From Pedobacter sp. Leaf41 (lineage in GTDB: Bacteria; Bacteroidota; Bacteroidia; Sphingobacteriales; Sphingobacteriaceae): a stretch of 64,000 nucleotides of DNA. The stretch's first letter is position 1. The number at the start of each line of letters is the position of its first letter. The stretch covers positions 1,300,127 through 1,364,126 of the forward strand of contig NZ_LMLE01000001.1 in assembly GCF_001422545.1 (NCBI RefSeq), written 5' to 3'. The notes under the pieces were generated by a model, which saw only the letters and a list, made by a program, of their open reading frames with translations, was not told the origin of the DNA and did not search any database. The translations under genes were made by a program, and so were the position numbers. This document shows, piece by piece, positions 35,491 to 57,893 of the stretch.

Positions 35491-35670
35491 TTATGCTACC
35501 TTTTTATGCTCCTGCTCATGACTTACAACCATTTCCGTTAAATCGGCACGGAACTCTAAGAAGACTTTTTTTGTTCCTCTTACTGATTTAACATTCTTAT
35601 CGCAATACAAATGATTTTTTCCCCTTAAAATAGTGATGAACGCTGCTACGGCATAATATAATCTTCTCAT
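35491..35670 (-). CDS. Hypothetical 59-residue protein
   Basis: ATG 35670 to TAA 35491 gives MRRLYYAVAAFITILRGKNH, LYCDKNVKSVRGTKKVFLEF, RADLTEMVVSHEQEHKKVA. It has a weakly hydrophobic start, a basic middle and a charged helix at the end. I do not recognise a family. Support comes from a strong terminator 75 bases downstream on the same strand and a purine-rich GAGGGAAGA stretch close to the ATG. It could be a real small gene or a surviving piece of a larger one. Confidence 0.4.
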   Translation of the reverse strand: MRRLYYAVAAFITILRGKNHLYCDKNVKSVRGTKKVFLEFRADLTEMVVSHEQEHKKVA

Positions 35671-38558: not shown

Positions 38559-38628
38559 ACAGGATAGAACAGGACGGAATAAATGTTTAAAACCGCTAAC
38601 ATCGCATAAGTTTAACCAAATATATATC
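38559..38628 (+). promoter_or_regulatory. Upstream element A of the glycan locus (before susC)
   Basis: Begins with a direct repeat, ACAGGATAGA-ACAGGACGGA, continues through GTTTAAAACCGCTAACATCG and ends TTTAACCAAATATATAT. A similar stretch (element B, 44164-44233) precedes the glycosidase unit. It lies about 150 bases before the susC ATG within the 567-base gap 38209-38775, which has no other gene I can support. A second TAACCAAATATTA lies at 38748-38760, nearer the start codon. It is either a regulator-binding site or a dispersed repeat. Confidence 0.5.
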
Positions 38629-38775: not shown

Positions 38776-41700
38776 ATGAATTTGAATTTCCAATCAAAAT
38801 CAAATCATCGGCTAAATGTATCAAGCAGAAAAAAAATCCTGATTGTAGGTGTTTCTGCATTGTCGTTTATGCTCATGAGTAACACCGTTAATGCGGCATC
38901 AGGCGCTGAAATTGTGCGCATTGTTCATGCAAAAAACAGTAAAAAACTCGATGTTACTGTAAAAGGAAAAATTACTGACGACAAAGGCGAAACCCTGGTA
39001 GGCGTTAGTATAAAAATTAAAGGCACAGCCCTGGCAACTACAACAGATGCCAACGGTGCATTTTCAATAAACATCCCCTCGACGGTTACAAACCCTGTTT
39101 TAGAGGTAAGTTATATTGGGTATGCAAGCCAGGATGTTCCGGTAAATGGAAGAACAACTATCACTGTTCAGTTGAAAAGTTCAATTAACGATCTTGATGA
39201 GGTAGTGATTGTGGGGTATAACAGCGTTAAGAAAAGCGATTTAACGGGAGCTGTAGTAAGTGTAGGTGCCGAAGAAATTAGATCCAGGCCGGTAACCAAT
39301 GCGTTGCAAGCTATTCAGGGTAAAGCAGCCGGCGTTGATATTACATCGAATGAACGCCCAGGGCAATTGGGGAGTATATTGATTCGTGGTGTTAGATCAA
39401 TCAACGCCAGTAATGCACCGCTATATGTAGTAGATGGGATTCCATTACAATTTGGCGGGATTGATGCGATCAATCCAAATGACATAGAAAATATTGACAT
39501 TTTGAAGGATGCATCCGCTACGGCTATTTATGGTTCACGTGGGGCAAACGGCGTAATTTTAGTCACGACAAAAAAAGGTAAGACAGGTCGTTTAACTATG
39601 GACTATGTGGGTACAGCAACGATTGAAAGCCTTCAGGATAGAATGGAAATGATGAACTCAGAACAATATGTTCAGTTTAGAAGAGATGCATATCGTAGGG
39701 TTGGCTTTTTAAACCCTAATGCAGCTGCTAATTCTACCTATCCTTTGATACCAACATTGGCTGATGATAGAAGAATTTTTGCAGGAGATAACTACACGCT
39801 TGAAAACATTCAAAAAGGCTGGGCTAATGGCACCTACGACGGAAGCTTAATTCCAACCACTGATTGGGGAGATTTGGTAACTCGAACAGGAGTTACACAA
39901 GATCATGTGTTAAGTGTAAGCGGTGGTACCGATAAAATAAAAGCTTATGGTTCATTCGGCTATCTAAACCAAACAGGAACCCAGTTGGGTCAGGATTTTG
40001 AACGGTATAGTGGCAAATTAAGTGTTGAACTTAACCCTGTCAAATGGTTTAAAATGGGATTGAATCTAAATGCAACTTATGGTTTGCAGAACTATGGTTT
40101 TCAAGCAGCAAGTGCATCTGGTGCAGGCAACATTTATGCTGCTGCTCGAGGTATGCTTCCTTTAGCCATTCCTTTTGATGCAAATGGCAACAGAATTAAC
40201 CTGCCAGGAGGAGATATTAATATTCAGAACCCTGTCTTAGAAGCAGATTACAATATTAACTTACGTAAAACACTAAGAACCTTAGGTTCTGCTTTTGCCG
40301 AATTTAACCTGATGAAAGGTTTAAAATACCGTCTGAATTTCGGACCAGACTTCTCAAACTTCTACAATGGTAGATATCAGGATGCTCGTTCTGTAAATAG
40401 GGATGCTGGTGTACCTGGTTCAAATAACAACTTTGCTCAACTAGATCAAAGTAATAAGTTTGCCTATACATTAGATCATCTAATCTATTATGATAAAACC
40501 ATTGGCAAGCATAATTTTGGTGTAACTTTATTACAAAGCTCTTCATACAATAAGGATGAATCTTCCTCCATGCGTGGTAGCCGAATCAATCTGGCTGCAC
40601 CACTTTGGTATGGATTAAGAGGCGCTAATATCACCGCTTTAGATGGTTTTGACACCAACCTTACAGAGACCAATTTAGAATCTTACATGGGAAGGATTAA
40701 TTATACTTTTAATAACAGATATTTATTAACAGCATCCGGTCGTTGGGATGGCGCCTCACAACTTGCAGTTGGCAATAAGTGGGACTTTTTCCCTTCTGCT
40801 GCGTTTGCCTGGCGTATAGATCAGGAAGACTTTCTGAATGACATTAAATGGATCAATTCACTAAAAGTTAGGTTAGGCGTGGGAAGCACTGGGAATTCAT
40901 CAGTACAAATTGGTAGTACACTAGGCCTTTTACAACCGCTTACCTATACCTTTGGTAGTGCTGCACAAGTGGGATACGTAGCATCTGATGCTTCTCTGGC
41001 CAATCCAATTTCTTTCCCAAATAAGCTTTTAAGCTGGGAAAAAACGTTACAGTATAATTTAGGTTTAGATTTCGGATTATTAGAAGGCAGAATTTCTGGT
41101 TCATTGGATATTTATAAATCAAGAACTACTGGCCTAATTTTATTAAAAGATATTCCAATTATTAATGGCTATCCATTTTCTTTCGATAACATAGCCGAAA
41201 CCAAAAACAGAGGGCTGGATTTAACATTAAACACAGTTAATATTAAGACCAAAGATTTTACATGGGAATCAACATTAAATTTCTCTGTGAGCAAGGATGA
41301 AATTGTGAAACTGAATGCTGGCGACATCGTTTCAAATCGATTATTTCTTGGTCAAAGAAATGGTGTAGCTTATGATTTTGTAAAGGATGGAATATGGCAA
41401 AACACTGCAGAAGATTTAGCCGAAATGGCAAAATTTAGAGCCAATGGTGCAAATTTTAATCCTGGAGATATTAGAGTAAGAGATTTAAATGGTGATTACA
41501 GGATCGATGCCAATAATGACCGCCAAATACTTGGCCATTACAACCCAAGTTGGACAGGCGGTTTAACAAACACATTTGGTTACAAAAACTTTGATTTATC
41601 GATTTTCATGGTGGCTCGCTACAATTTCTTAATCGAAACTGGTGCAGAGGCCTTACAGGGTCGTTTTGCGCAACGTGTTCTAGACTATTGGACGCCAACG

Positions 41701-41988
41701 AATCCGACAAATGATTACCCATCACCAAATTATGCCAGTGCAGCTGGAGATCAGTATAAGAGTTCGATGAACTATCAGGATGGATCATTTATTAAAATCA
41801 GAAATATATCACTAGGTTATAATTTTGCTGAAAGTATTGCCAAGAAATTAACTCTATCGAGATTAAGAATTTATGCGCAAGCAATTAATCCGGGTTTGAT
41901 CTATTCCAATATCAAATGGATTGACCCTGACTTAGGAGGTTCTACATTTAACAGAGGCGTGGTATTTGGAGTTAATGCAAGTTTCTAA
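38776..41988 (+). CDS. SusC/RagA family TonB-linked outer membrane transporter (locus 1)
   Basis: A 1070-residue protein. A long cytoplasmic-side start and hydrophobic signal segment (ILIVGVSALSFMLMSNTVNAA) precede a carboxypeptidase-like sandwich (about 60-140, VKGKITDDKGETLVGVSIKIKGT). The linker ends DLDEVVIVGYNSVKKSDLTGAV, the plug carries LQGIQ-like ALQAIQGKAAGVDI and YVVDGIPL, and the barrel ends in FNRGVVFGVNASF. SusC proteins import oligosaccharides with a SusD lid, powered by TonB. The susD gene follows after 67 bases. The family's usual DATAIYGSRGANGVILVTTKKG motif is present (SATAIYGSRGANG). Upstream element A and a TAACCAAATATTA motif stand before the start. Confidence 0.95.
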   Translation: MNLNFQSKSNHRLNVSSRKKILIVGVSALSFMLMSNTVNAASGAEIVRIVHAKNSKKLDVTVKGKITDDKGETLVGVSIKIKGTALATTTDANGAFSINIPSTVTNPVLEVSYIGYASQDVPVNGRTTITVQLKSSINDLDEVVIVGYNSVKKSDLTGAVVSVGAEEIRSRPVTNALQAIQGKAAGVDITSNERPGQLGSILIRGVRSINASNAPLYVVDGIPLQFGGIDAINPNDIENIDILKDASATAIYGSRGANGVILVTTKKGKTGRLTMDYVGTATIESLQDRMEMMNSEQYVQFRRDAYRRVGFLNPNAAANSTYPLIPTLADDRRIFAGDNYTLENIQKGWANGTYDGSLIPTTDWGDLVTRTGVTQDHVLSVSGGTDKIKAYGSFGYLNQTGTQLGQDFERYSGKLSVELNPVKWFKMGLNLNATYGLQNYGFQAASASGAGNIYAAARGMLPLAIPFDANGNRINLPGGDINIQNPVLEADYNINLRKTLRTLGSAFAEFNLMKGLKYRLNFGPDFSNFYNGRYQDARSVNRDAGVPGSNNNFAQLDQSNKFAYTLDHLIYYDKTIGKHNFGVTLLQSSSYNKDESSSMRGSRINLAAPLWYGLRGANITALDGFDTNLTETNLESYMGRINYTFNNRYLLTASGRWDGASQLAVGNKWDFFPSAAFAWRIDQEDFLNDIKWINSLKVRLGVGSTGNSSVQIGSTLGLLQPLTYTFGSAAQVGYVASDASLANPISFPNKLLSWEKTLQYNLGLDFGLLEGRISGSLDIYKSRTTGLILLKDIPIINGYPFSFDNIAETKNRGLDLTLNTVNIKTKDFTWESTLNFSVSKDEIVKLNAGDIVSNRLFLGQRNGVAYDFVKDGIWQNTAEDLAEMAKFRANGANFNPGDIRVRDLNGDYRIDANNDRQILGHYNPSWTGGLTNTFGYKNFDLSIFMVARYNFLIETGAEALQGRFAQRVLDYWTPTNPTNDYPSPNYASAAGDQYKSSMNYQDGSFIKIRNISLGYNFAESIAKKLTLSRLRIYAQAINPGLIYSNIKWIDPDLGGSTFNRGVVFGVNASF

Positions 41989-42055
41989 CCTATAAAGCGA
42001 TTATAAAGTTTACATAATCTATTCCTGTAAACTTCACTTCATAAAAAATATTCAG

Positions 42056-44023
42056 ATGAAAAAGATTATAAATTTAATATCAGGTGCTGCAATAATTGGA
42101 GGCTTAATGGTTTTACCAACCTCTTGCAAAAAAAGTTTTCTTGATGAAAATATTATCAATGCCAGAACAACTGCTGATTTCCAAACTATAGGTGGACTGG
42201 AAGATTTAGCGGTAGGAATGTACCAATCCTTAAAATTTCACTTCAATTATACCTGGGCTTATACCAGCAACAATTATGGCGTAGATGAATTTACAGTAGG
42301 CGGAGATAGAACTGAACAAATGTGGAACTCTTATGATGGCACATTAAATTCTTTCAACAGTGATGTCAGGGCTATTTTCGACAATATGTACGCAAATATC
42401 AATTCGGCAAATATCATGATTAAAAATGTACCCATTTATTATGAAGGTGCAAACAAAAACGCCCGCTTAGGTGAGGGTTACTTTATGCGTGCTTTCGATT
42501 ACTTTAAACTGGTCAAGCAATTTGGCGGAGTTCCTTTACAACTTGAATCTTTAGAAGTAATCAAAGAGCAATTTACCAGAAATTCAGCTAAAGAAGTTTA
42601 TGATCAGGTAATTAAAGATTTTACGCAAGCTTACGACTTACTTCCTGCAACGCCAGGGCAAACTGGGAGAATTACCAAATGGGCAGCTGCTCACTTTTTA
42701 GCCAAAGCTTATTTGTTTCGTGCAAGCGAACTTTATAACGACTGGAATAGTGATACAAAAACTGCTGACCTTCAAAATGCAGTCAAATATGCTGATTTAG
42801 TTATTAATAGTGGAGCACACACTTTGGCAACTAATTATAGCGATCTTTGGAATTTCACTACAGTTGATGGGCCAAATGAAACGAATAGAGAAGTAATTTT
42901 AGCGGCACAGTTTTCTAATAATACTGCTACACAAGGTCGTTACGGAAATCAGGTACACTTGTATTATCCTTCCATCTATCAAACATTGCCTGGTATGGTT
43001 CGTGATATTGCTGGTGGACGTGAATTTCAAAGATTGAAGACAACAGATTATGCAATTGACGTTTTCGATCGCGTTAATGACTCCAGGTTCTGGAAGAGTT
43101 TTAAAACAAGGTATATTGCGAACAATGCCAATAACTTACCTAAATGGACTGCTGCTAATGCGCCAACACCAGCTCTGGTAAATCAAAATAAGTTTAGCGT
43201 TGGCCAGGAATCGATTTTATACATTGTTAATGATGCTGGCGATAGCCGCTACACCAGTTCAAACATTGGCTTAAGAGCTCCGAGTATGTTTGTAAGGTAT
43301 TTTTCGGGCCAGGCGCAAAGCTATTTAAACCCTCATGGAAATTATGGCGTTAGCCAATACGTAGCATTATCAAAATTCATGGATGGTTCCAGAAATTTGG
43401 TTGCTTCGCAATTTGGTCAACGTGATGGTATATTAGCGAGGTTGGGTGAAACTTACTTAATTGCAGCGGAAGCTGCCGGAAGACAAGGTTTGTATGCTCA
43501 AGCTATTACCTATATCAATAGAGTTCGTGACCGTGCTGCTTATAAAGACGGTGAAGATCGATCTTCGTATGTTGATGGTGGAGTATCTTACAAAACAAAC
43601 CCTGCAGTGACCAACCTTAATGTGTCTTATTCAGATAAAAACACCTATTTCGAATCGAATAATATCCCAGTTACCACGACAAATACGTTGACATCAATGC
43701 ACTTGACAAGTGAAAATGATATCTTTAATTCGAATAAAGACTTTTATGATAAGGTTGGTGCCGTATCTAATGCTGATAAATTTAATGCTTTCATATTAAA
43801 CGAACGTTCAAGAGAACTAATGGGAGAATTAATAAGATGGGAAGATCTAGCCCGTACGAAAACATTGGTTGCAAGAACGGCGGCATTTAACCTAGAGGCT
43901 AAGCCGCTTGAGAACAAACACTATTTGCGACCACTACCTCAATCCTATTTGGATGTAATCAAAATCAATGGAGCTGCCTTATCACCAGCGCAAAAGCAAG
44001 AGATGCAAAATCCTAACTGGTAA
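42056..44023 (+). CDS. SusD/RagB family glycan-binding lipoprotein (locus 1)
   Basis: A 655-residue lipoprotein with a signal peptide ending in a lipobox at TSCKKSFLDE. TPR-like helices (ARLGEGYFMRAFDYFKLVKQFGGVPL is the conserved SusD core) and a C-terminal RELMGELIRWEDLARTKTLVAR...NKHYLRPLP are typical. It is longer than many SusDs, with an insert between about residues 300 and 420. It captures the glycan and closes over the SusC pore at the cell surface. It forms an operon with susC and is followed by a strong terminator that cuts it off from the enzymes. Confidence 0.95.
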   Translation: MKKIINLISGAAIIGGLMVLPTSCKKSFLDENIINARTTADFQTIGGLEDLAVGMYQSLKFHFNYTWAYTSNNYGVDEFTVGGDRTEQMWNSYDGTLNSFNSDVRAIFDNMYANINSANIMIKNVPIYYEGANKNARLGEGYFMRAFDYFKLVKQFGGVPLQLESLEVIKEQFTRNSAKEVYDQVIKDFTQAYDLLPATPGQTGRITKWAAAHFLAKAYLFRASELYNDWNSDTKTADLQNAVKYADLVINSGAHTLATNYSDLWNFTTVDGPNETNREVILAAQFSNNTATQGRYGNQVHLYYPSIYQTLPGMVRDIAGGREFQRLKTTDYAIDVFDRVNDSRFWKSFKTRYIANNANNLPKWTAANAPTPALVNQNKFSVGQESILYIVNDAGDSRYTSSNIGLRAPSMFVRYFSGQAQSYLNPHGNYGVSQYVALSKFMDGSRNLVASQFGQRDGILARLGETYLIAAEAAGRQGLYAQAITYINRVRDRAAYKDGEDRSSYVDGGVSYKTNPAVTNLNVSYSDKNTYFESNNIPVTTTNTLTSMHLTSENDIFNSNKDFYDKVGAVSNADKFNAFILNERSRELMGELIRWEDLARTKTLVARTAAFNLEAKPLENKHYLRPLPQSYLDVIKINGAALSPAQKQEMQNPNW

Positions 44024-44045
44024 GTTTGATCTGTCATTATTACAA

Positions 44046-44078
44046 GAGCAATTAACTTGAAGTTAATTGCTCTTTTTT
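44046..44078 (+). terminator. Terminator after susD of locus 1
   Basis: GAGCAATTAACT pairs perfectly with AGTTAATTGCTC around TGA, followed by TTTTTTG. It splits the locus into a transport unit and an enzyme unit. Confidence 0.9.
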
Positions 44079-44163
44079 GTTTGAAGGAGTTCGTATTACA
44101 CCTATTTTTTCAAACGATTGAAATTTAAGTCTAGCCTCTCGATCCTTTTTGAACCTACTTTAA

Positions 44164-44233
44164 ACAGGATGGAACAGGATGGTATACCAATTTTTAAACC
44201 GTAAAATCGTGTAAGCTATTTAACCGAATATTT
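44164..44233 (+). promoter_or_regulatory. Upstream element B of the glycan locus (before the glycosidases)
   Basis: ACAGGATGGA-ACAGGATGG direct repeat, then TTTTTAAACCGTAAAATCG and TTTAACCGAATATTTG. It aligns along its whole length with element A at 38559-38628. It lies after the susD terminator and 55 bases before the first glycosidase ATG, where a promoter is needed. Confidence 0.5.
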
Positions 44234-44288
44234 GAGTCTTAAGATTGTTGACAACACCATGTTGCGGCATGCTGAAGCATTACATCTT

Positions 44289-45302
44289 ATGAAAATCTTT
44301 ATCTATAAAAAAATTATCTTCGCTTGCTTGCTTTTAGTTTCCATATTCAGTGTTGCACAACAAAAAGGCACATCATTAATTAATAAACCTCTTTTCAGAG
44401 ATCCTATATTTGATGGAGCGGCAGATCCAGTCGTCATTTGGAATAAGAGTGAAAAAAAGTGGTTTATGTTTTATACTAACAGGCGAGCCAATGCAAAAAA
44501 TCTTGATGGAGTGAGCTGGGTACATGGAACCAGAATTGGCATCGCCGAATCAAAAGATGGCATAAAATGGAAATACCGTGATACTTGCGACATCCAATAT
44601 CGCCTAACGGATTACACCCACTGGGCGCCAGAAGTGATAGAAAACAAAGGCACCTACCACATGTACCTTACCTACGTACCGGGAGTTTTTAAAGATTGGC
44701 GCCATCCACGGTATATTATTCATTTAACCAGTAAAAACTTAATTAACTGGAAATTCGAATCAAAATTGCCTCTAGCCTCCGATCGTTGCATAGATGCCTG
44801 CGTATTTAAGTTGCCTAATAACCAGGGTTGGCGGATGTATTACAATAATGAAGTGGCAGGCAAATCGATCTTCTACGCTGATAGCAAAGACCTTTACCAT
44901 TGGGTTGATAGCGGGAAAAGAATTGTTGGCGATAAAGGATGCGAAGGGCCAAAGGTTTTCTACTGGAAAAATACCTATTGGATGATTGTTGACAACTGGA
45001 AAGGCCTTGGTGTCTATTCCTCAACTGATCTATTAACCTGGAAAAGGCAGGAAAAAAACATATTGCAGTCGCCAGGCAAAGGCGTAGATGATGGCGTGAT
45101 GGGTGGCCATTGCGATGTGCTGGTCAACAATGGAAAAGCTTACGTTTATTATTTCACACATCCCGGCAAAACACCTGAAAATAAAGGCATAGATAATTAC
45201 ACCACCAGAAGAAGCTCCATACAAATGGCTGAACTGAAATATGAAAATGGTGAAATAACTTGCCACAGAGATGAACCTCTTTATGTGAAATTAACACACT
45301 AA
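44289..45302 (+). CDS. Secreted five-bladed beta-propeller glycosidase (GH43/GH32-like)
   Basis: A 337-residue protein with a signal peptide (MKIFIYKKIIFACLLLVSIFSVAQ). The propeller begins FRDPIFDGAADPVVIWNKSEKKWFMFYTN, where the Asp of ADPVV is the expected catalytic base. HWAPEVIENKGTYHMYLTYVPG, GCEGPKVFYWKNTYWMIVD and DDGVMGGHCDVLV hold further acid candidates; the GCEGP Glu fits the acid position. The family could be GH43 or a near relative such as GH117; this cannot be settled by eye. The frame opens 19 codons earlier at 44232, but the signal peptide fixes ATG 44289. It is the first gene of the enzyme unit, 9 bases before GH2. Confidence 0.7.
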   Translation: MKIFIYKKIIFACLLLVSIFSVAQQKGTSLINKPLFRDPIFDGAADPVVIWNKSEKKWFMFYTNRRANAKNLDGVSWVHGTRIGIAESKDGIKWKYRDTCDIQYRLTDYTHWAPEVIENKGTYHMYLTYVPGVFKDWRHPRYIIHLTSKNLINWKFESKLPLASDRCIDACVFKLPNNQGWRMYYNNEVAGKSIFYADSKDLYHWVDSGKRIVGDKGCEGPKVFYWKNTYWMIVDNWKGLGVYSSTDLLTWKRQEKNILQSPGKGVDDGVMGGHCDVLVNNGKAYVYYFTHPGKTPENKGIDNYTTRRSSIQMAELKYENGEITCHRDEPLYVKLTH

Positions 45303-45311
45303 CCAAATAAA

Positions 45312-48266
45312 ATGAAATACCTCTACCTCATCGTTTTATGCGGCCTCATGGCAGGTAACCTTCACGCACAAAATCAGCGGAAAACCTATAATTTTAACCC
45401 TGGCTGGAAACTTCTTGTAGGCGATCAGGAAGATGCCAAAAACGTTGAATTTGATGACAACAGCTGGAAATCAATCACGCTTCCCCACGCCTGGAATGAA
45501 GATGAGGCATTTAAAAAATCTATAGAACAGCTCTCTACTGGCATCGTCTGGTATAGAAAACATTTCAAAGTTGAAGGCTCAAAAGACCATAAAGTTTTCC
45601 TTGAATTTGAAGGAATCAGGCAGGCCGGAGAATTTTATTTAAATGGGGTGTTTATTGGTCGGCATGAAAATGGGGTAACTGCTTTCGGCTTTGATATCAG
45701 TGATTTAATTCAGCCAGACAAAGACAATGTGCTTGCCGTACGAATTGATAATGCCTGGAATTACAAAGAGAAGGCTACAAACTCGGGTTACCAATGGAGT
45801 GATAAAAATTTTAATGCCAATTACGGCGGAATCTCTAAAAATGTTCGCCTGCACCTCACGGGAAAGATTTATCAAACTTTGCCATTAAATGCTTTACTAA
45901 AAACAACGGGCAATTATATTTATGCCAAAAACTTTGATATCACAGGTAAAAAAGCAGTAATTGTTTCTGAATCGCAAGTGCGTAATGAGACCTCAGCAAT
46001 AAGCGAAGTGCAGTATGAGGTGCAAATTAAAGATGCATCAGGTAAAGTGATTAAAACTTTTCAATCGACAGCTCAGAACTTAGCGCCAGGAACAACCGCA
46101 ATGCTAAAAGCAGAGGCAATGGTTGAGGGATTGAATTTCTGGAGTTGGGGCTATGGATATTTATACACGGTTACTTCCCGAATTAAAATAAACGGCAATA
46201 CCGTTGATGAATTAAATACGAAAACCGGATTTAGGAAGGCTGAATTTGAAGATGGTATGGTTTACCTCAATGATCGGGTATTGATGATTAAAGGATACGC
46301 ACAACGCACCAGCAACGAGTGGCCTGCCATTGGTTTGTCGGTACCCGCCTGGTTGAGTGATTACAGCAATCAATTGATGGTAGAAAGCAATGCCAATTTA
46401 GTAAGATGGATGCATATTGCGCCATGGAAACAAGATGTAGAATCCTGCGACCGGGTAGGTTTAATTCAAGCAATGCCTGCCGGTGATGCCGAAAAAGATG
46501 TAACGGGAACCCGGTGGGATCAACGAAAGTCAGTAATGACAGATGCCATTATTTACAATCGAAATAACCCAAGCATCCTGTTCTACGAATGTGGTAATGA
46601 ATCTATTAGTGCCGCCCACATGGTTGAAATGAAGGCAATTCGAGATCAGTACGACCCTAACGGAGGCCGGGCGATCGGCTCCAGAGAAATGTTGGACATT
46701 CCTTCCGCAGAATATGGCGGCGAAATGCTTTACATTAATAAAAGCGCTTCGAAACCCTTGTGGTCGATGGAATATTCCAGAGATGAAGGTTTAAGAAAAT
46801 ACTGGGACGAGTTTTCGCCTCCCTTTCATAAAGATGGTGCGGGTCCGCTTTACAAGGGTGCAGATGCCAGCATTTATAATAGAAACCAGGATACACATGC
46901 TATAGAAAACGTAGTGAGATGGAATGAATATTACAAAGAAAGACCAGGGACAGGAAAAAGGGTAAGTTCTGGAGGCGTGAATATCATCTTTTCGGACTCT
47001 AACACCCATTACCGTGGAGAAGAAAATTACCGTCGCAGTGGCGAAGTAGATGCGATGAGAATCCCTAAAGATGGATTTTATGCGCATAAAGTGATTTGGG
47101 ATGGCTGGGTTGATACCAAGAAAACAGGCATTCATATTATCGGTCACTGGAATTATAAAGCTGGAATTAAAAAGGATATTCACGTAATCGCCTCAGGCGA
47201 TAAAACTGAACTGTTTGTTAATGGAAAATCATTGGGTTTTGGAGCCAAAAGAGATGGCTTTGTGTATACTTTTAAAGATGTTGCTTATAAATCTGGAAGC
47301 TTAAAGGCAATTTCTTATGACGATAAAGGTGTTAAATTAGCTGAAAAGCAAGTAAAAACCGCCGGAACGCCTGTTGCCATTAAACTGACCAAGCTACAAC
47401 ATCCCACAGGATTTAAAGCAGATGGTGCTGATTTGGCACTTGTTCAAGTTGAGGTTGTAGACGCTGAAGGAAATAGGAACCCGATCGCATTGAACTTAAT
47501 TAATTTCGAAATAAGTGGTCCGGCAGAGTGGCGTGGTGGTTTAGCGCAAGGGCCAGATAACTACATCTTATCCAAACAGTTGCCGGTTGAAGGCGGCGTA
47601 AACCGGCTATTAATTCGATCAACCACAACGCCGGGTAAAATCAATATCATTGCAAAAGCTGATGGATTAAAATCCGCTACAATTACATTAGAAACGCTTC
47701 TCGTAAATGTTAAAGATGGTTTATCGGTCCAGTTTCCGGCTGACGGATTAAAATCAAACTTACAGCGTGGAGAAACACCAGTGGCACAAACTTATCAAAT
47801 GAGCAGAACACCTGTAACCATTTTATCAGCTTCTGCCGGCGCTAATACAGAAAAGGCTAAGCTAAGTTATGATGATAATGAGCTCAGCGACTGGGTAAAC
47901 GATGGTAATTTAAACACCGCCTGGATCAAATATAATTTGGCTAAAGAAACCAGGGTTACAGAAGTTGAATTGAAAGTAAATGGTTTTAGAACTAAAGCGT
48001 ATCCAATAAGAATTTTGGTGGACGACAAAGAAGTTTTCAAAGGCAATACCATCCCAAGTTTGGGCTATTTTACCGCTGTGTGTAAACCAACAACAGGCAA
48101 AACGGTAACTATTCAGCTTCTTGGTTCTGGAAAAGAGACGGCGGAGAGCGAAAAAATCGGCGTTGAAGTGAATGGCAAAAAGCTTGATGACGGCATCGAG
48201 CGGGCTGAAACCAAATCAAAGGGAGGCTTAAGCATTATCGAAACCGAAATTTACGGAGCTAAATAG
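45312..48266 (+). CDS. Glycoside hydrolase family 2 enzyme
   Basis: A 984-residue secreted enzyme (signal peptide MKYLYLIVLCGLMAGNLHA). Order of parts: sugar-binding jelly roll (about 30-190), immunoglobulin-like domain (about 200-310) and TIM barrel. NPSILFYECGNES holds the acid/base Glu (about 428) and PLWSMEYSRDEG the nucleophile Glu (about 486). Two further beta domains and a discoidin-like segment (YDDNELSDWVNDGNLNTAWIKY) follow near 860. The family includes beta-galactosidases, glucuronidases and mannosidases; the barrel end ELFVNGKSLG belongs to the DUF4982-like group common in these loci. Its ATG is preceded by TAACCAAATAAA. It lies in the enzyme operon between the propeller glycosidase and GH43. 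Confidence 0.88.
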   Translation: MKYLYLIVLCGLMAGNLHAQNQRKTYNFNPGWKLLVGDQEDAKNVEFDDNSWKSITLPHAWNEDEAFKKSIEQLSTGIVWYRKHFKVEGSKDHKVFLEFEGIRQAGEFYLNGVFIGRHENGVTAFGFDISDLIQPDKDNVLAVRIDNAWNYKEKATNSGYQWSDKNFNANYGGISKNVRLHLTGKIYQTLPLNALLKTTGNYIYAKNFDITGKKAVIVSESQVRNETSAISEVQYEVQIKDASGKVIKTFQSTAQNLAPGTTAMLKAEAMVEGLNFWSWGYGYLYTVTSRIKINGNTVDELNTKTGFRKAEFEDGMVYLNDRVLMIKGYAQRTSNEWPAIGLSVPAWLSDYSNQLMVESNANLVRWMHIAPWKQDVESCDRVGLIQAMPAGDAEKDVTGTRWDQRKSVMTDAIIYNRNNPSILFYECGNESISAAHMVEMKAIRDQYDPNGGRAIGSREMLDIPSAEYGGEMLYINKSASKPLWSMEYSRDEGLRKYWDEFSPPFHKDGAGPLYKGADASIYNRNQDTHAIENVVRWNEYYKERPGTGKRVSSGGVNIIFSDSNTHYRGEENYRRSGEVDAMRIPKDGFYAHKVIWDGWVDTKKTGIHIIGHWNYKAGIKKDIHVIASGDKTELFVNGKSLGFGAKRDGFVYTFKDVAYKSGSLKAISYDDKGVKLAEKQVKTAGTPVAIKLTKLQHPTGFKADGADLALVQVEVVDAEGNRNPIALNLINFEISGPAEWRGGLAQGPDNYILSKQLPVEGGVNRLLIRSTTTPGKINIIAKADGLKSATITLETLLVNVKDGLSVQFPADGLKSNLQRGETPVAQTYQMSRTPVTILSASAGANTEKAKLSYDDNELSDWVNDGNLNTAWIKYNLAKETRVTEVELKVNGFRTKAYPIRILVDDKEVFKGNTIPSLGYFTAVCKPTTGKTVTIQLLGSGKETAESEKIGVEVNGKKLDDGIERAETKSKGGLSIIETEIYGAK

Positions 48267-48393
48267 AAGAAAAATTACGAGGTGTATAGCTGATTATCAT
48301 AGTAAGACGCGATCATCTTAAAGAATGAGTTTGCGGCAGTGACCAGGCGTATCGAAATTCTAGCACTAGAAAATAAAGTCAATTGAAAATTAA

Positions 48394-50001
48394 ATGAGCA
48401 AAATAAAAAATCATTTCAAACTACCTGTTCTAATACTTACTTTTTTGCTTTTGCTTACCGCTGTAAATAATCTACAGGCACAGTTTGCAAAAATCAAAAA
48501 TGATAATTTCTGGAAAACGATAGATGGCCAGCCAATTTATAGTCAAGGCGGTGGTATTTTTCAGTTTACCGATCCAAAATCTGGCACTAAAAAATATTTC
48601 TGGTATGGAGTCAAATATGCGGAGGCCGAACTTTACCTAAACAATCCATCAGTTACCTATCCAAATGCAACATTCGAATCCGTTACTTGCTATAGTTCTA
48701 CTGATTTGGTGAACTGGATCAGCGAAGGTAACGTGCTAACCAAAGATGAAATTAGCAGAGTACCTAAAACCTGGGTTGGTAGATTGGGTGTGGCCTATAT
48801 TGCAACTCTAAAAAAATACGCCATGTTTGTTCAGCATGGTAATCAGGTGCTCATTACTACTGCTGATACTCCGAACGGTGCCTTTGAATGGCATCAACGA
48901 ATAAACATGGAACCAATGATTGGAACCAGCAATACTGGGGATCAAACTGTTTTTACGGATGAGGATACTGGAAAATCATATCTGGTTTATTCTTATGGTC
49001 GCGGTCGCAATAAAATTTATCTTTCAGAAATCGGAGTAAAAAACGGCAAAGTTAACTTGCTTGATTGTGTAGAAATTTTCAAGGGCGAGAGCCGTGAGGG
49101 CAATTGCATGTTCAAATATGGAGGGAAATATTACATGTATGCCTCAAATATTTATGGATGGGATGGCTCGCTGGCTTACTATTTAGTGGCCGATAACATC
49201 AGTGGACCGTATTTACCTAGCAACAAAATGCTGGTTACGAACGGAAGCGCTGATGATTATGCTCACATTTCACAAACAGGTTTCTTCGTTAACGTCAAAG
49301 GTTCAAAAGCAGAAACTGTTGTTTTTTGTGGTGATCGCTGGGCTAATTTCGCTGGAAATGGATTAGGTTATAATCAATGGTGTCCACTATCTTTTGCAGG
49401 AAAAACGCCGTTTTTCAATTCTCTGAACTCATGGAATCTCAATATTGAAACAGGCACCTGGAAAGTTGCTGAAGATAATGACTTTGTTAAAAATGGTAGC
49501 TTTGAAGCAGATAGAAAACGGATTCCAAGCGTGTTTAAGCCAGTTCAGATGCAATTAACAGGTTGGAAAACGTCTGTCATTAAAGGAAATCAAATTAGCC
49601 TGGATAGTTTAACCTCCCCAACGTTAAATCATTTCAACAGCACAGCAGAAAGAAAAATTGTTATTGGCGAGAAGAGTTTAAATGTTAGCGATAAAGTAAA
49701 TTTCCAGCGAAAAATTAATCAGATTATTACTTCAACTATCCCTGTGCAATTGGTTCACGGGCGCTATAAATTAACCGCAAAAGTAAAAAACAATGGCCGA
49801 TTTAAGAATCTGGAAATGTATGCTGTAAGCGGAGGCAAAAGACTCAGTCATCACTTTGAAAAAGAAAGTAATGATTGGAATACTATTATGCTCGAGAACA
49901 TTGGTATTGTTAACGGGAAAGTTGAAATTGGCTTTTTGGCCGAGGGAATGGCTGGTGCCAGCTGCTTGATAGACGATGTTTCTTTAATTAAAAGTAAATA
50001 A
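48394..50001 (+). CDS. GH43-like glycosidase with C-terminal binding module
   Basis: A 535-residue secreted protein (signal peptide ending NNLQAQ). The propeller runs from about 40 to 350: PIYSQGGGIFQF, KKYFWYGV, VTCYSSTDLVNW, DQTVFTDEDTGKSYLVYSYG, GESREGNCMFKYGGKYYMYASN and VVFCGDRW. These follow the pattern of GH43 exo-beta-1,3-galactanase-like subfamilies. A C-terminal sandwich (about 365-535, DFVKNGSFEADRKRIPSVF to GASCLIDDVSLIK) looks like a carbohydrate-binding module of the CBM4/CBM22 type. It starts after a 128-base gap and ends 5 bases before the next GH43, so the two are co-transcribed. Substrate: probably a galactan; this is inference. Confidence 0.78.
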   Translation: MSKIKNHFKLPVLILTFLLLLTAVNNLQAQFAKIKNDNFWKTIDGQPIYSQGGGIFQFTDPKSGTKKYFWYGVKYAEAELYLNNPSVTYPNATFESVTCYSSTDLVNWISEGNVLTKDEISRVPKTWVGRLGVAYIATLKKYAMFVQHGNQVLITTADTPNGAFEWHQRINMEPMIGTSNTGDQTVFTDEDTGKSYLVYSYGRGRNKIYLSEIGVKNGKVNLLDCVEIFKGESREGNCMFKYGGKYYMYASNIYGWDGSLAYYLVADNISGPYLPSNKMLVTNGSADDYAHISQTGFFVNVKGSKAETVVFCGDRWANFAGNGLGYNQWCPLSFAGKTPFFNSLNSWNLNIETGTWKVAEDNDFVKNGSFEADRKRIPSVFKPVQMQLTGWKTSVIKGNQISLDSLTSPTLNHFNSTAERKIVIGEKSLNVSDKVNFQRKINQIITSTIPVQLVHGRYKLTAKVKNNGRFKNLEMYAVSGGKRLSHHFEKESNDWNTIMLENIGIVNGKVEIGFLAEGMAGASCLIDDVSLIKSK

Positions 50002-50006
50002 AACTG

Positions 50007-51419
50007 ATGCGTAAATGCAAACTTTTGAGCATTCTATGGAGCATGCTGCTTTTTCAAGCGTTGAATTTATTTGCTCAACAGCCTGGAAAAACTGATGCAA
50101 TTTATTCTGGTTTATCGTGGTATGATCAAAATGGTAATGTAGTAAGTGCTCACGGGGGAAATATCATTAAAGAAGGAAGTCGGTATTATCTGTTTGGCGA
50201 ATCACATAGCGATACCAGCAATGCATTCGAAGGTTTCAACTGCTACTCTTCACAAGACCTTTACAACTGGAAATTTGAAAGCGTTGCTCTTCCAAAACAA
50301 CTAAACGGAAAGCTCGGTCCAAATCGAGTTGGAGAACGCGTAAAAGTGATGAAAAATCCCTCTTCAGGACTTTTTGTGATGTTGATGCATGTTGATACTT
50401 TAGGCTATAAAGATCAATTTGTCGGTTATGCTACTTCAAAAAACATCACAGGACCCTACCTATTTAACGGACCTCTTTTATTTAAGGGAAAAGCGATCAA
50501 AAAATGGGATATGGGTACTTTTCAGGATGATGATGGAAAAGGGTACTTGCTTACCCATGGCGGAATTATTTATCGGTTAAGTGACGATTACCAATCTGCA
50601 AGTGAACTGCTGAATCAAAATATATCTACAGGTTTTGAATCGCCCACACTGTTTAAAAGAAGTGGAATTTATTATTTTATTGGATCTCATCTAAGCTCTT
50701 GGGAAAAGAATGATAATTATTATTATACTTCATCTTCGCTGTCAGGTCCATGGAAATTTGGTGGAATATTAGCACCAAAAGGAAAACTTACGTGGAATTC
50801 ACAATCAACCTTTGTACTGGAAATACCTGGAAAATCTGATACAACTTACATGTTTATGGGCGATAGGTGGTCCTATCCAAAACAGCATTCTGCTGCGAGC
50901 TATGTTTGGCAACCCATCAGTTTTGCAGCTGATTCGATTTCTATCTCTACATTTCTACAGGCCTGGAAAATAAATCAAGTTAGTGGCAAAGCAACGGTGA
51001 AAGCGCTTGATTATCAAATGCTTTTAAGCAATAACAAACTCCTAAAATATGCCGGGCGGTGGGTCGATACGACTATCAACGAATCTCCAGTTATGCGATC
51101 AATCGACTCTAAATCTTCGCTTTCTGTCGAATTTATCGGTACTCAAATTGGAATTTATGGATTAACCTTACCTGATAATGGTTACGCAAGAGTATCTGTG
51201 AGCAATAAAAGCGGAAAAATTTTGGTAAATACACTGGTAGATTTTTATTCCAAAACTCCTGCTTCGCAATTGATATTTTTATCGCCAATATTAAAAAAAT
51301 CAAGTTATAAACTAAGGTTAGAGGTAACAGGCGAGCGCCCAAATTGGTCCGATAAGAAAAAAACGGTTTACGGCAGCACAGCAAATAATATCTCCCTATC
51401 AAAAATAATTATCAAATAA
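50007..51419 (+). CDS. GH43-like glycosidase (exo-beta-1,3-galactanase-like)
   Basis: A 470-residue secreted protein (signal peptide ending LNLFAQQ). NVVSAHGGNIIKEGSRYYLFGE, FNCYSSQDLYNWKFE, NRVGERVKVMKNPSSG, MGTFQDDDGKGYLL, GFESPTLFKRSGIYYFIGSHLSSW, WNSQSTFVLEI and YMFMGDRWS follow the GH43 subfamily 24 type step by step. That group cuts beta-1,3-galactan backbones of type II arabinogalactan. A smaller beta domain closes the protein (about 340-470). It starts 5 bases after the previous GH43 and ends 11 bases before GH115, so it is within one operon. The pair probably arose by old duplication, given the shared layout but low identity. Confidence 0.8.
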   Translation: MRKCKLLSILWSMLLFQALNLFAQQPGKTDAIYSGLSWYDQNGNVVSAHGGNIIKEGSRYYLFGESHSDTSNAFEGFNCYSSQDLYNWKFESVALPKQLNGKLGPNRVGERVKVMKNPSSGLFVMLMHVDTLGYKDQFVGYATSKNITGPYLFNGPLLFKGKAIKKWDMGTFQDDDGKGYLLTHGGIIYRLSDDYQSASELLNQNISTGFESPTLFKRSGIYYFIGSHLSSWEKNDNYYYTSSSLSGPWKFGGILAPKGKLTWNSQSTFVLEIPGKSDTTYMFMGDRWSYPKQHSAASYVWQPISFAADSISISTFLQAWKINQVSGKATVKALDYQMLLSNNKLLKYAGRWVDTTINESPVMRSIDSKSSLSVEFIGTQIGIYGLTLPDNGYARVSVSNKSGKILVNTLVDFYSKTPASQLIFLSPILKKSSYKLRLEVTGERPNWSDKKKTVYGSTANNISLSKIIIK

Positions 51420-51430
51420 TAAAAGCAAAG

Positions 51431-53785
51431 ATGAATTTAAAACTACTACTCCTGCTGATTGTTTCCTTTGCAGTACCCCAGCTCCTATTCGCCGACTTTA
51501 TCTTTCGCAACGGGAAGAATATGGAAATCTCATTCCCTGGCGGAGAAGAAGATGTAGTACAAACGGCAGTTGATATTTTTTCAAAAGATTTTAGCGCTGT
51601 TTTTAATGCAAATTTATTGAAAGGTTCAAACGCTCAGATTATAGTCGGCACTCTTGGGAATCATTCCCTTGCAGAAAAACTGATTGATCAGGCCTCTTTG
51701 GAAAAGCTGAAAATTCATTCTGAAGGTTATGCCTTATGGGTTGAAAAAGACAAAATGTACATCTTGGGTAGCGACAAAAGAGGCACCGCCTATGGCATAC
51801 TCGAATTATCTCGTCGCATCGGCGTTTCACCTTGGGAATGGTGGGCAGATGCGGCCATCGCCAGGAAAAATTCACTAAGCTTTAAAAATGGGTTTCAATT
51901 ATTAGAACATCCATCGGTGGCATATCGTGGTATATTTATCAACGATGAAGATTTCGGTTTGATGCCCTGGAGTTCCCGCACTTTCGAACCTTCGAAAATT
52001 AAAGGGCAAATAGGGCCAAAAACACATGCCCAAATTTTTGAACTGCTGTTGCGTTTAAGGGCAAATGCTTTTTGGCCAGCCATGCACGAAGTTTCTGTAG
52101 CTTTTTTTCAAACGCCTGGTAATAGGGAAATGGCTGATAAATATGGAATCGTTGTTGGTTCATCACATTGTGAACCGATGATGAGAAGTGCCAATACAGA
52201 ATGGAAAATTGATGGTAAAGGCAATTATGACTATGTAAATAATCGTGAAAATGTGTTGCGCTTTTGGGAAACCCGAGTGAAGGAACTTACAAACTCTGAC
52301 AACATTTATACCTTAGGAATTAGAGGGGTTCACGATGGAAAAATGCAAGGGGCAAATACCTTAAAGGAACAATTTGATGCCATCACCTCGATAATTAAAG
52401 ATCAACGCATCATGATCAGTGAGAATTTAAATCCCGATTTGACTAAAGTTCCGCAAGTTTTTATTCCTTACAAAGAGGTTCTGGATGTGTATAAAATGGG
52501 CCTTAAAGTGCCTGATGATGTGACTTTGATGTGGACAGATGATAATTATGGCTATATCCGCCACTTCCCTACCGAAGCAGAGCGGAACCGCAAAGGCGGA
52601 AACGGGATTTACTACCACATTTCTTACTGGGGTCGCCCGCATGATTACCTTTGGCTGTCTACCAATCATCCTGCGCAAATTTACACGCAAATGAAGCTCG
52701 CTTATGATAAAGGTGCTAAAGACATGTGGATCCTGAACGTTGGTGATATTAAGCCAGGGGAGTATTTAACAGAACTATTCTTGGATATGGCTTGGAATAT
52801 CGATTCGATTGAAGATAATAAAAAAGGATTGGATCAACATTTAAAAACATGGCTTACAAGAGAGTTTGGCCAGCCATATGCTGCTGATTTACTCGCCGTA
52901 ATGAATGAATACTATCGTTTGGCCTATATCCGAAAACCCGAATTTATGGGAAACACCCGAACTGAGGAAACCGACCCGAAATTTAAAGAAGTTACTGATC
53001 TACCCTGGAGTGAGCAGGAAATAAAAAACCGTATCGCCGACTATGATAAAATTTCGGAAAAAGTAGTCCAGCTTTCTAAAGCTATACCAGCCGACAAGCA
53101 AAATGCCTGGTTTGAATTAATTGAATACCCCGTACGTGGGGCAGCAGAGTTAAACAGAAAGCTGCTATATGCGCAACTTGCCAGACATGGTCGTGCGAAT
53201 TGGTCGCAAAGCGAAGCCGCTTATGACGCCATTGAAAAACTCACGACTAAGTATACAACTTTGGCGAATGGAAAATGGAAAAACATGATGGATTTCAAAC
53301 CAAGAAATCTTGCAGTTTTTCAAAAACTACCGCAAGTAAAATCAGCAACTCCGCTTAAAACTTTTCAAGCCCCTTTTGCAACATTCAACGGAAATGAATT
53401 TGTAAAATTTGAAGGTACAAAACCTGTATCACATGGCTTAGGTCACCAAAGTGGAGCGGTATCTATCAAAAAAGGAGATCACGCAGTTTATGAATTTAAT
53501 AGCCTTGCAAAGGATTCGATAAGAGTTGAAGTAGCGCTTGCTCCGAATTTACCGGTGGAAGGAAAATTGATTCGGTTTGAAATCAAAATTGATGATCAGG
53601 CTCCAAAAATTGTGGATTACCATACCAGCGACAGAAATGAGGAATGGAAAATCAATGTTTTAACCAATCAAGCCAAACGTATGATTATTACCAGGTTGGA
53701 CAATAAACAACGCAACCACTCCATTACCATTAAAGCGTTGGATGAGAACGTTGTTTTGGATCAAATAAAAATTTATAACCTATAG
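51431..53785 (+). CDS. Glycoside hydrolase family 115 alpha-glucuronidase
   Basis: A 784-residue secreted enzyme (signal peptide ending PQLLFA). The family marks are clear: GTAYGILELSRRIGVSPWEWWADA, YRGIFINDEDFGLMPWSSRTF, LRLRANAFWPAMHE, YGIVVGSSHCEPMMRS, LGIRGVHDGKM, MWTDDNYGYIRHFP and GIYYHISYWGRPHDYLWLST. GH115 removes (4-O-methyl) glucuronic acid from xylan or arabinogalactan side chains. Together with the galactanase-like GH43 pair upstream, arabinogalactan is the better guess here. A C-terminal beta domain (about 680-784) completes the protein. It is the last gene of the enzyme operon and is convergent with GH28 with only 20 bases between the stops. Confidence 0.92.
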   Translation: MNLKLLLLLIVSFAVPQLLFADFIFRNGKNMEISFPGGEEDVVQTAVDIFSKDFSAVFNANLLKGSNAQIIVGTLGNHSLAEKLIDQASLEKLKIHSEGYALWVEKDKMYILGSDKRGTAYGILELSRRIGVSPWEWWADAAIARKNSLSFKNGFQLLEHPSVAYRGIFINDEDFGLMPWSSRTFEPSKIKGQIGPKTHAQIFELLLRLRANAFWPAMHEVSVAFFQTPGNREMADKYGIVVGSSHCEPMMRSANTEWKIDGKGNYDYVNNRENVLRFWETRVKELTNSDNIYTLGIRGVHDGKMQGANTLKEQFDAITSIIKDQRIMISENLNPDLTKVPQVFIPYKEVLDVYKMGLKVPDDVTLMWTDDNYGYIRHFPTEAERNRKGGNGIYYHISYWGRPHDYLWLSTNHPAQIYTQMKLAYDKGAKDMWILNVGDIKPGEYLTELFLDMAWNIDSIEDNKKGLDQHLKTWLTREFGQPYAADLLAVMNEYYRLAYIRKPEFMGNTRTEETDPKFKEVTDLPWSEQEIKNRIADYDKISEKVVQLSKAIPADKQNAWFELIEYPVRGAAELNRKLLYAQLARHGRANWSQSEAAYDAIEKLTTKYTTLANGKWKNMMDFKPRNLAVFQKLPQVKSATPLKTFQAPFATFNGNEFVKFEGTKPVSHGLGHQSGAVSIKKGDHAVYEFNSLAKDSIRVEVALAPNLPVEGKLIRFEIKIDDQAPKIVDYHTSDRNEEWKINVLTNQAKRMIITRLDNKQRNHSITIKALDENVVLDQIKIYNL

Positions 53786-53805
53786 ATTATCAAAACAAAA
53801 AATGA

Positions 53806-55056
53806 TTACTTTTTCACCACCAATGGTTCACCATTCACAATAACATTTTCGTATTTAACTTCATCATATTTATTTTTAAGCACCGGATTTTTAGTAGTGA
53901 TCTGTAAATTTTGAAAGGTAAAACCAGAAAGTTTGTCCAGGGGATTGCCATTCATTTCACCAAATTTGTTGGCTTCTACTTTGATGTTGCTCATTTTGAT
54001 ATTCCTAATGGTGCCAAAAGGTTGTTCAGTGCTACCTGCTAAATCAAAGAACTGCTTCCAGGGATTAAGGCTAATTATCGAACCACATTTACCGGTTATA
54101 TTTTCAATAGTAATGTTTTCATAAATTTGAAAAGTATCACCTCTCATCTTCAAGTTCAAAATCGGACAATTATTTTCCATTACGCAGTTGCGAAGAATGA
54201 TGTTGTTGGCGTGTACACATTCGCTGCCCAAGGTAAGCACCGCGTGTGAGTTTCCAAAAGTGCAGTTTTCAATTAATACATCTTCAACCGTTCCGTTTTC
54301 TGGCAGCTGATGAGCGGTTGGTCCTTTACCTCCTTTGATAGCAATAGCGTCGTCATTTACAGAGATATAGCAATTTCTGATGATTACGTTTTTGCATACA
54401 TCAAGGTCAATTCCATCGGTGCTTGGTGCAGGAACGGGTTGATATGGCGATCGGATATCAGTATTCTCTACTAAAATGTTATTGCATTTGTAGAAATGGG
54501 TTGTCCAAAAGCCGGCATTGCGAAGTTTAATATTTTGAATTTTGACGTTGTCACTTCCCCAAATAAAAATTAATCTCGGCCTGCTCACTTCCAAATTGGT
54601 ACTTTCCTTGCCAATTTTGCGAACCGAATCGCGATGCGACCAAAACGTTTTCCAAAATTTTGATCCATTGCCGTCAATGGTCCCAGGTCCTTCGATACTG
54701 AAATCATTTACCTGATAGGCATTAATAACGGCCGCAAAATACTTCAGGCTTCTCCCTTCCATCCTTGATGGGATAAAGGGATAATTCTTAATATCATCTG
54801 ACCCTTTTAGTACTCCACCCTCTTTTAAAACTAATTTTGTTTTCTTTTTGAAAAACAAAGCACCAGTCAAGAAAGTGCCTTTAGGTATCACAATCTTTCC
54901 TCCACCTCTTGAGGCAGCTCGATCGATTACTTTTTGTATGGCTTTGGTTTGAACGATGTTGCTATCTGCTTTTACACCAAACTTCATGATGTCGTATTCT
55001 TGCGCATTAAGCTTTAACGCAGTGATGAAAAGGATAACGGTTATTAAATATTTCAT
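53806..55056 (-). CDS. Glycoside hydrolase family 28 (polygalacturonase-like)
   Basis: A 416-residue secreted beta-helix enzyme (signal peptide ending LKLNAQ). YDIMKFGVKADS and IQKVIDRAASRGGGKIVIPKGTFLTGAL form the usual start. STDGIDLDVCKNV, NDDAIAIKGGKG and NSHAVLTLGSE hold the three catalytic Asp positions and the substrate-side His. GH28 cuts or trims galacturonan and related uronic polymers; this one could act on rhamnogalacturonan or galacturonate side groups. It faces the GH115 gene and has its own promoter region. CTAACCAAAT lies directly ahead of its ATG, as before susC and GH2 of the same locus. Confidence 0.9.
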   Translation of the reverse strand: MKYLITVILFITALKLNAQEYDIMKFGVKADSNIVQTKAIQKVIDRAASRGGGKIVIPKGTFLTGALFFKKKTKLVLKEGGVLKGSDDIKNYPFIPSRMEGRSLKYFAAVINAYQVNDFSIEGPGTIDGNGSKFWKTFWSHRDSVRKIGKESTNLEVSRPRLIFIWGSDNVKIQNIKLRNAGFWTTHFYKCNNILVENTDIRSPYQPVPAPSTDGIDLDVCKNVIIRNCYISVNDDAIAIKGGKGPTAHQLPENGTVEDVLIENCTFGNSHAVLTLGSECVHANNIILRNCVMENNCPILNLKMRGDTFQIYENITIENITGKCGSIISLNPWKQFFDLAGSTEQPFGTIRNIKMSNIKVEANKFGEMNGNPLDKLSGFTFQNLQITTKNPVLKNKYDEVKYENVIVNGEPLVVKK

Positions 55057-55181
55057 ATTTGGTTAGCGATCAACATAAAATCGACCCATTTCAAATATCA
55101 ATAAATGGCCAACGAATTGCGTCCTGTAGTATCCTGCCATTTGAAGAATGGGAAACTTATGCTAAACGACTTATCACCTAA

Positions 55182-57875: not shown

Positions 57876-57893
57876 CTTTTTATCAATTATCAA

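Follow-up and report, generated by a model that had tools for sequence, protein, structure and literature searches.

Which glycan is degraded by a SusC/SusD locus of Pedobacter sp. Leaf41 in which no sensor was found, and how are its genes brought under common control? The locus lies at positions 38776-55056 of a 64,000-nucleotide stretch of the genome (contig NZ_LMLE01000001.1, positions 1,300,127 to 1,364,126, forward strand), called the window here, and consists of a SusC/SusD pair and five enzyme genes on the plus strand and a GH28 gene on the minus strand. Gene content and coordinates had been given correctly in an earlier note, which predicted acidic arabinogalactan or pectin side chains as substrate. 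This prediction is supported by the GH115, by the residue set of one GH43 and by an adjoining cluster for rhamnogalacturonan I (RG-I), and its two alternatives seem to be one answer: judged by sequence comparison, the locus probably targets arabinogalactan-type, (4-O-methyl)glucuronate-bearing side chains of RG-I. A direct repeat in front of its units is very likely a functional regulatory site. The genes of the locus are:

38776-41988, plus strand: SusC-type TonB-dependent transporter (TIGR04056, 807.6 bits; Pfam)
42056-44023, plus strand: SusD-type lipoprotein (PF14322, PF07980)
44232-45302, plus strand: predicted GH159 furanosidase for alpha-L-arabinofuranose (alpha-L-Araf) and/or beta-D-galactofuranose (beta-D-Galf) (7zei, Ch_Gaf159A, 305 bits; active-site residues)
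45312-48266, plus strand: GH2, no specificity given (6hpd, 491 bits)
48394-50001, plus strand: GH43_24-like enzyme with an extra C-terminal region (fold and residue alignment), also called GH43a
50007-51419, plus strand: GH43_24 exo-beta-1,3-galactanase candidate, relative of BT_2959 (3nqh, 455 bits; 5flw, 183 bits; eight subsite -1 residues)
51431-53785, plus strand: GH115 of the BtGH115A type (5by3, 952 bits)
53806-55056, minus strand: rhamnogalacturonidase-like GH28 (NF049899, 547.1 bits, cut-off 650)

An RG-I cluster follows to the right of the window. Together with it the locus forms a large RG-I region, of which it is the left arm and which starts at about 38.5 kb in the window and ends some 38 kb past the window's right end. 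The minus strand encodes there SusD, SusC, a fasciclin protein, GH106, GH31, GH88/105, GH2, two GDSL esterases, PL11 (C1:1384016-1385434) and an MG2-domain protein; further right follow two GH51-like and two GH43 genes on the plus strand, GH127-like, GDSL and GalB-type GH2 genes on the minus strand and an AraC gene on the plus strand. The right-hand GH2 passed the cut-off for the exo-beta-1,4-galactosidase BT4151 (1662.6 vs 1500), while the GH106 was nearest to BT4145 at 1088, below the cut-off of 1300. The region thus unites SusC/SusD with backbone enzymes of the set by which an RG-I polysaccharide utilization locus (PUL) is recognised, PL11 or PL9, GH28, GH105 and GH106; no PL9 was seen in it. 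The RG-I PUL BT4145-BT4183 of B. thetaiotaomicron, as described in the available part of a review, likewise holds a BT4151-type GH2, GH106, GH28, GH88/105, PL11 and SusC/D in one region (PMC8002723). The Leaf41 region differs from it in that no hybrid two-component system (HTCS) regulator was found, in its GH159, GH115, GH43_24 and the GH2 of this arm, and in its repeat. The GH28 had been read as polygalacturonase-like. Its best NCBIfam match was instead the rhamnogalacturonidase BT4153, below the cut-off and followed by the next family at 159, and BT4153 is counted among the RG-I enzymes in the same review (PMC8002723). By this match the predicted enzyme is rhamnogalacturonidase-like, not a generic polygalacturonase.

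The GH115 aligned to BtGH115A over nearly the whole protein, and to the five other solved GH115 enzymes among the matches listed with at most 361 bits; by these bit scores, not by a tree, it groups with BtGH115A and not with the xylan enzymes. According to the available text of PMC9063842, no GH115 other than BtGH115A has been characterised on arabinogalactan, and this enzyme does not act on xylan; the other characterised members described are xylan enzymes. The sequence suggests an arabinogalactan-type substrate for the Leaf41 protein too, whose gene differs from that of BtGH115A in its setting, an RG-I region. A glucuronoxylan locus, with the GH115 as xylan alpha-glucuronidase, would be in line with those other characterised members; as the enzyme is far closer to the xylan-inactive BtGH115A, and no xylanase family was found among the proteins scanned, this explanation is hardly credible.

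Two galactanase-like GH43 enzymes had been predicted in the earlier note, which did not name the genes; 48394 and 50007 fit by fold and sequence, but they are unequal. The subsite -1 set of GH43_24 comprises, in Pc numbering, E57, E102, R103, Y126, D158, E208, W229 and Q263, according to the part of PMC7939473 available. Gene 50007 keeps all eight, the Gln base included, and thereby has the full residue set of the GH43_24 exo-beta-1,3-galactanases (Pc1,3Gal43A, Ct1,3Gal43A, BT3683; also BT_2959); its matches were BT_2959 (3nqh) and 5flw, a putative exo-beta-1,3-galactanase. A sequence alignment of gene 48394 retained only five (R103, D158, E208, W229, Q263) and placed P, G and H at the positions of E57, E102 and Y126, the first of these being the least secure, since the sequence lengths differ there. 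Its structure model (pLDDT 70.8) was closest to GH43_24 or BT_2959 in the top nine chains (Z 27.1-31.4, root-mean-square deviation 2.8-3.5; next 23.9). It thus shares with the named enzymes the fold, the acid (E235) and the Gln base (Q294) and differs from them at the three places, so that gene 48394 is GH43_24-like with a changed sugar site. Assignment to GH43_24 is supported by the residues for gene 50007, and by the fold but not by the full residue set for gene 48394. G129, at the E102 place, was Gly in 15 of 15 aligned sequences, its own included. As E102 reads the axial C4-OH of galactose (PMC7939473), gene 48394 would lose this recognition. A plain second beta-1,3-galactanase was rejected for gene 48394, the lost residues and the gene neighbours weakening it. 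Homologues of this gene adjoin a PETase-like hydrolase (L133, L135, L136), GH53 (L133, L136) and GH2 (L133, L135), which may indicate a type I galactan context. A literature search for BT_2959/BT2949 brought nothing useful.

Gene 44232 had not been recognised as GH159 in the earlier note. Its Pfam match to GH43 was weak (42 bits), and the sole solved relative found was Ch_Gaf159A (GH159, PDB 7zei). The residues reported as essential there, D19, D142 and E190, and H244 of a putative metal site (PMC9278983) correspond to D65, D188, E238 and H293, all four being kept. By this comparison the predicted product is a GH159 furanosidase, not a GH43; it differs from Ch_Gaf159A in a signal-peptide-like start, read by eye from the likelier start codon ATG 44290, and in its PUL setting. 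The GH159 founder and Ch_Gaf159A act on p-nitrophenyl-beta-D-Galf, and alpha-L-Araf activity is also reported in the accessible text of this study (PMC9278983). A Galf-containing glycan as substrate, on which gene 44232 would supply a beta-D-galactofuranosidase beside the beta-1,3-galactanase and the alpha-glucuronidase, would agree with the former activity and with the conserved active site. It is weakened by the alpha-L-Araf activity and by the RG-I setting of the close GH159 homologues given below, and we consider it very improbable. Green algae are one example of a source of such glycans. Plant RG-I is not known to contain Galf, so the terminal furanose removed by GH159 is most likely alpha-L-Araf.

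Gene neighbours were compared in other genomes by counting RG-I markers (PL11, PL9, GH106, GH105, GDSL/CE12-like, GH28) within the 20 kb fetched. GH159 was present in 21 of the 151 genomes that form the family sample, Leaf41 included. Twenty of its 22 matches were examined; the two excluded were the match in the window itself and a weak, partial one of 40 %. The close homologues (57-79 %) had at least one marker in 10 of 11 loci, the distant ones in 0 of 9. The GH2 had no close named relative (6hpd, 491 bits); the motifs GNE and MEYS, read in its sequence, contain E430 and E487, which we take to be the catalytic residues. Thirty matches to it in 25 genomes gave 21 fetched loci; with the BT4151-type GH2 added to the markers, 18 of these loci had at least one RG-I marker and 15 had two or more. 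In distant Bacteroidota the GH2 (about 55-67 % identity) adjoins GH115 (L009, L010, L018, L020, L026, L028, L036, L061, L067), and both are also close neighbours in a metagenome-assembled genome labelled Paenibacillus (L045).

Matching loci, which the earlier note had asked for, were found. Among the matches listed the closest relatives of the locus belong to Pedobacter, and the closest named one was Pedobacter sp. MC2016-05 (L002; GH115 93 % identical), which has the same gene order without gene 50007 (L002 9846-10001). Gene 50007, missing there between GH43a and GH115, was thus acquired or deleted within this group of close relatives. In P. jejuensis (L006) the SusC/SusD pair, GH43a and GH115 stand beside GH106, GH88, GH2, GDSL and PL11 genes. 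Three relatives have an extra GH39 gene 3' of the GH2 (L003:5289-6962, L004:4524-6188, L007:14899-16566), which is absent from the window.

No local sensor was found, in line with the earlier note. SusC had no STN signalling domain in a Pfam scan; in the window no HTCS was found, two HTCS queries (BLAST) matching only the kinase domain of a PAS histidine kinase (31324-32763), and the 77 kb to the right (open reading frames of at least 150 aa, C1:1364000-1441400) held no HTCS, only the AraC gene. The hybrid two-component regulator of a BT4145-83 type RG-I PUL was thus not found in the locus. Control had accordingly been placed elsewhere, but a cis-acting repeat is local and stands 5' of susC, GH159 and GH28. 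The elements concerned are:

38559-38577, plus strand: operator-like repeat copy 1, 198 bp 5' of the susC ATG, with a putative -7 box TAACATCG 19 nt on
44044-44074, plus strand: intrinsic terminator separating susD from the enzyme genes, 14-bp stem and T run, z -5.05
44164-44182, plus strand: operator-like repeat copy 2, shortly 3' of the terminator and 5' of GH159
55119-55137, minus strand: operator-like repeat copy 3, 62 bp 5' of GH28

The sequence 5' of susC can be aligned with that 5' of GH159, and both contain ACAGGAYRGAACAGGAYGG, at 38559 and 44164; if up to three mismatches are tolerated, 0.01 matches to it are expected per window. At this tolerance the whole 4.78-Mb genome contained the two window copies and four more, the reversed control 2; of the extra matches one (1 mismatch) precedes the fasciclin/SusC unit, one (3 mismatches) the MG2/PL11 unit, and two lie elsewhere. 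The refined consensus, RCAGGAYRSHRCAGGWYGS, is a 19-bp direct repeat of two like halves 10 bp apart (period 10). It was drawn by eye from the own genome, L002-L005 and L007 (Pedobacter), G145, G125, G084, G113 and G091. Six perfect copies were present in the own genome, all within 50 kb (C1:1338685-1388705) and three in the window; they precede susC, GH159, GH28, fasciclin/SusC3, the BT4151-type GH2 and MG2/PL11. No copy had one mismatch, four with two mismatches lie elsewhere, and the reversed control gave five at up to two. The terminator, by which the transport and enzyme units had been considered split, is a real hairpin, but the same repeat stands 3' of it, so it need not uncouple the units. 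Among three relatives folded at this position, L002 has the same hairpin, L007 another one and L006 none. About 37-54 nt 3' of the repeat a AACCAAATAT-like stretch recurs in 5' leaders (window 38614; L139 near 7790); before GH28 it extends into the start codon.

Out-of-sample tests excluded six genomes, the own one, G145, G125, G084, G113 and G091. Perfect copies of RCAGGAYRSHRCAGGWYGS numbered 142 in the 151 family genomes against 1 for the reversed pattern; 117 and 1 are left when the six source genomes are taken out. At up to one mismatch, the 25 GH2-bearing genomes had 147 matches (6 reversed) and 17 genomes of the same genus that lack the GH2 had 20 (1 reversed), 10 of the 20 in G088 and G120, where PL11 is present. 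Of the 25 genomes that have the GH2, 24 carried a perfect copy, compared with 30 of the 126 that lack it (p 6e-12); for a strong PL11 match the figures were 28 of 32 with and 26 of 119 without (Fisher p 1e-11), the weak match in G067 being counted as without and all six source genomes falling into the GH2- and PL11-positive groups. With the source genomes removed, 22 of 26 strong-PL11 genomes had a perfect copy, against the same 26 of 119 others. In the 22 non-source PL11 genomes that have a perfect copy, 29 of 61 perfect sites lay within 50 kb of a PL11 gene, where about 3 were expected (2.9, a rough upper estimate from 50 kb on either side of each PL11 gene). In the named GH115 loci the repeat, at up to one mismatch, was found in 6 of 6 from Pedobacter (L002-L007, five of them pattern sources) and in 1 of 74 others.

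Among the matches listed, 54 perfect sites from 18 non-source genomes, two overlap duplicates counted once, were inspected. A same-strand open reading frame started within 1 kb of 53, and one lay within a reading frame. The next gene was SusC-like at 10 sites, an RG-I or other carbohydrate-active enzyme or an esterase at 22, fasciclin-type at 14, an extracytoplasmic function (ECF) sigma factor at 3, and without label at 5; the labels were given by reading, several enzyme labels being weak (three at 25-26 % identity), and two fasciclin labels rest on Pfam, twelve on likeness. A -7 box TAnnTTTG (at least 5 of 6 letters) occurred at exactly offset 20, a gap of 19 nt, in 35 of the 54 sites; none of 39 other offsets had it in more than 3. 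In the six own sites TA stands at the -7 place in five, GA in one. The bases on either side show hardly any conservation, and whole promoters inherited from a common ancestor would therefore explain this poorly. No second conserved box was found at -1 to -40 upstream of the 54 sites, where A/T was slightly favoured and C was absent at -1.

These promoters hint at one putative trans-acting regulator common to the units of the locus. The 3' half of the repeat presumably covers the place of the -33 element; activation and repression would therefore both be possible. Instead of an operator, the repeat could be the extended -33 element of an alternative sigma factor, as the fixed gap to the -7 box and the three ECF sigma genes 3' of copies might indicate. 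TAnnTTTG is, however, the -7 box of housekeeping Bacteroidota promoters, the repeat is built of two similar halves 10 bp apart, and the ECF -35 sequence, GGAAC, is not conserved across the copies, which renders a sigma element unlikely. The ECF-type sigma factor genes themselves, directly 3' of the repeat in L196, L210 and L220, hint at a regulatory cascade. Direct repeats before rhamnogalacturonan operons are also known as predicted HTCS_Rgu-1/-2 operators of B. theta; these sites of 12 or 14 bp with 9- or 6-bp spacers stand about 21 bp apart, whereas the Leaf41 halves are 10 bp apart in 19 bp total (PMC3878776), and a pair of sites about 21 bp apart, as in HTCS-type operators, was not found here. 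The motifs of the DeoR-type RhaR have a periodicity of 10-11 bp, comparable to the period of 10 in Leaf41 (PMC3870299). In the available parts of these two papers the repeat was not found, its letters having been searched solely as 'CAGGA' in PMC3870299 (0 matches). The local AraC gene (L189:220-1116) was rejected as general regulator: at E 1e-50 it had no homologue in G125 and a 39 % one on another contig in G145, and both genomes carry repeat clusters. At its own locus AraC is a possible regulator.

The locus might also be a free-standing one for arabinogalactan-protein or gum that lies beside the RG-I cluster by chance. The GH43_24 residues and the BtGH115A-type GH115 suggest arabinogalactan, and the GH39 of L003, L004 and L007 recalls a gum-arabic GH39 enzyme described in the available text of PMC8939339. 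Against chance proximity, the GH159 and GH2 homologues track RG-I markers and the same repeat precedes this arm and the RG-I backbone units; a free-standing gum locus is improbable. A GH16-type endo-galactanase was not seen among the proteins scanned, which speaks against a gum locus and also against arabinogalactan-type side chains of RG-I. Several further observations weigh against our explanation. Homologues of gene 50007 had RG-I markers in only 2 of 8 loci, with GH115 nearby in 4 of 8; of the 12 loci with homologues of gene 48394, one had a marker and two had GH53, a family for type I galactan. Among the 80 named GH115 loci 56 were long, 34 of them without and 22 with an RG-I marker; above 800 bits a marker was present in 19 of 29 long loci and none in 10. 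The alpha-linkage reported for BtGH115A is described as puzzling or disputed, the glucuronic acid of arabinogalactan being beta-linked, in the part of PMC9063842 available. On the side of the repeat, 4 of the 32 PL11 genomes have no perfect copy, its occurrence in 26 of 119 genomes without strong PL11 implies a regulon wider than PL11-bearing RG-I loci, and the consensus stems partly from the own six sites, so that the fair tests are those in other genomes.

For side chains of RG-I the following sequence of events can be proposed. SusC/SusD would import the glycan; GH159 would take off the terminal furanose, most likely alpha-L-Araf, and GH115 the uronic cap. The GH43 50007, perhaps also 48394, would shorten the galactan from its non-reducing end, and the GH2 would take off a further beta-sugar. 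The GH28 may cut galacturonic acid from the RG-I backbone, which would also be the target of the neighbouring GH106, GH88/105, BT4151-type GH2 and PL11. One trans-acting regulator would bind RCAGGAYRSHRCAGGWYGS at the -33 region of each promoter and so co-regulate the units. Observed are the gene content, the homologies, the named active-site residues and, for the repeat, its sequence, its positions and its distance from a -7 box; from these we infer substrate, reaction order, protein location, the repeat as binding site and activation or repression.

Beyond the locus the window encodes an opposite-strand arm:

56124-57893, minus strand: second SusD-like gene, named by reading the sequence and by gene order, kept in L002 and L003
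57894-61190, minus strand: second SusC-like gene, named by reading, kept in L002 and L003
61171-62613, minus strand: fasciclin-domain protein (PF02469)

Fasciclin-domain proteins recur beside SusC/SusD and 3' of the repeat, here at 61171-62613 and in L139:5405-7669 and L194:540-2756. Left of the locus, positions 27900-36200 are gene-poor and decayed-looking and follow a tRNA-Lys (27948-28021). The frames, several named by eye, comprise a split arsenate-reductase-like gene, GNAT, ArsR, a histidine-kinase tail, CheB, a PAS kinase and a DNA-glycosylase-like N-terminal fragment, followed by about 3 kb without a clear gene.

A broader proposal combines two parts: an undescribed regulator, neither an HTCS nor the local AraC, would run a family-wide pectin/RG-I regulon via the repeat, covering transporters, lyases, esterases, fasciclin and ECF sigma units, and gene 48394 would found a sister group of GH43_24 that keeps the Gln base and cleaves a non-galactose sugar, perhaps the acidic end of a side chain. 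We put this combination forward tentatively, at slightly less than even chances. For the organism, a glycan locus without a local sensor would be tied to a regulon through a cis element alone. The association of GH159 and an arabinogalactan-type GH115 with RG-I settings narrows their candidate substrates, and the repeat may serve as a searchable marker of RG-I genes in one family of the Bacteroidota.

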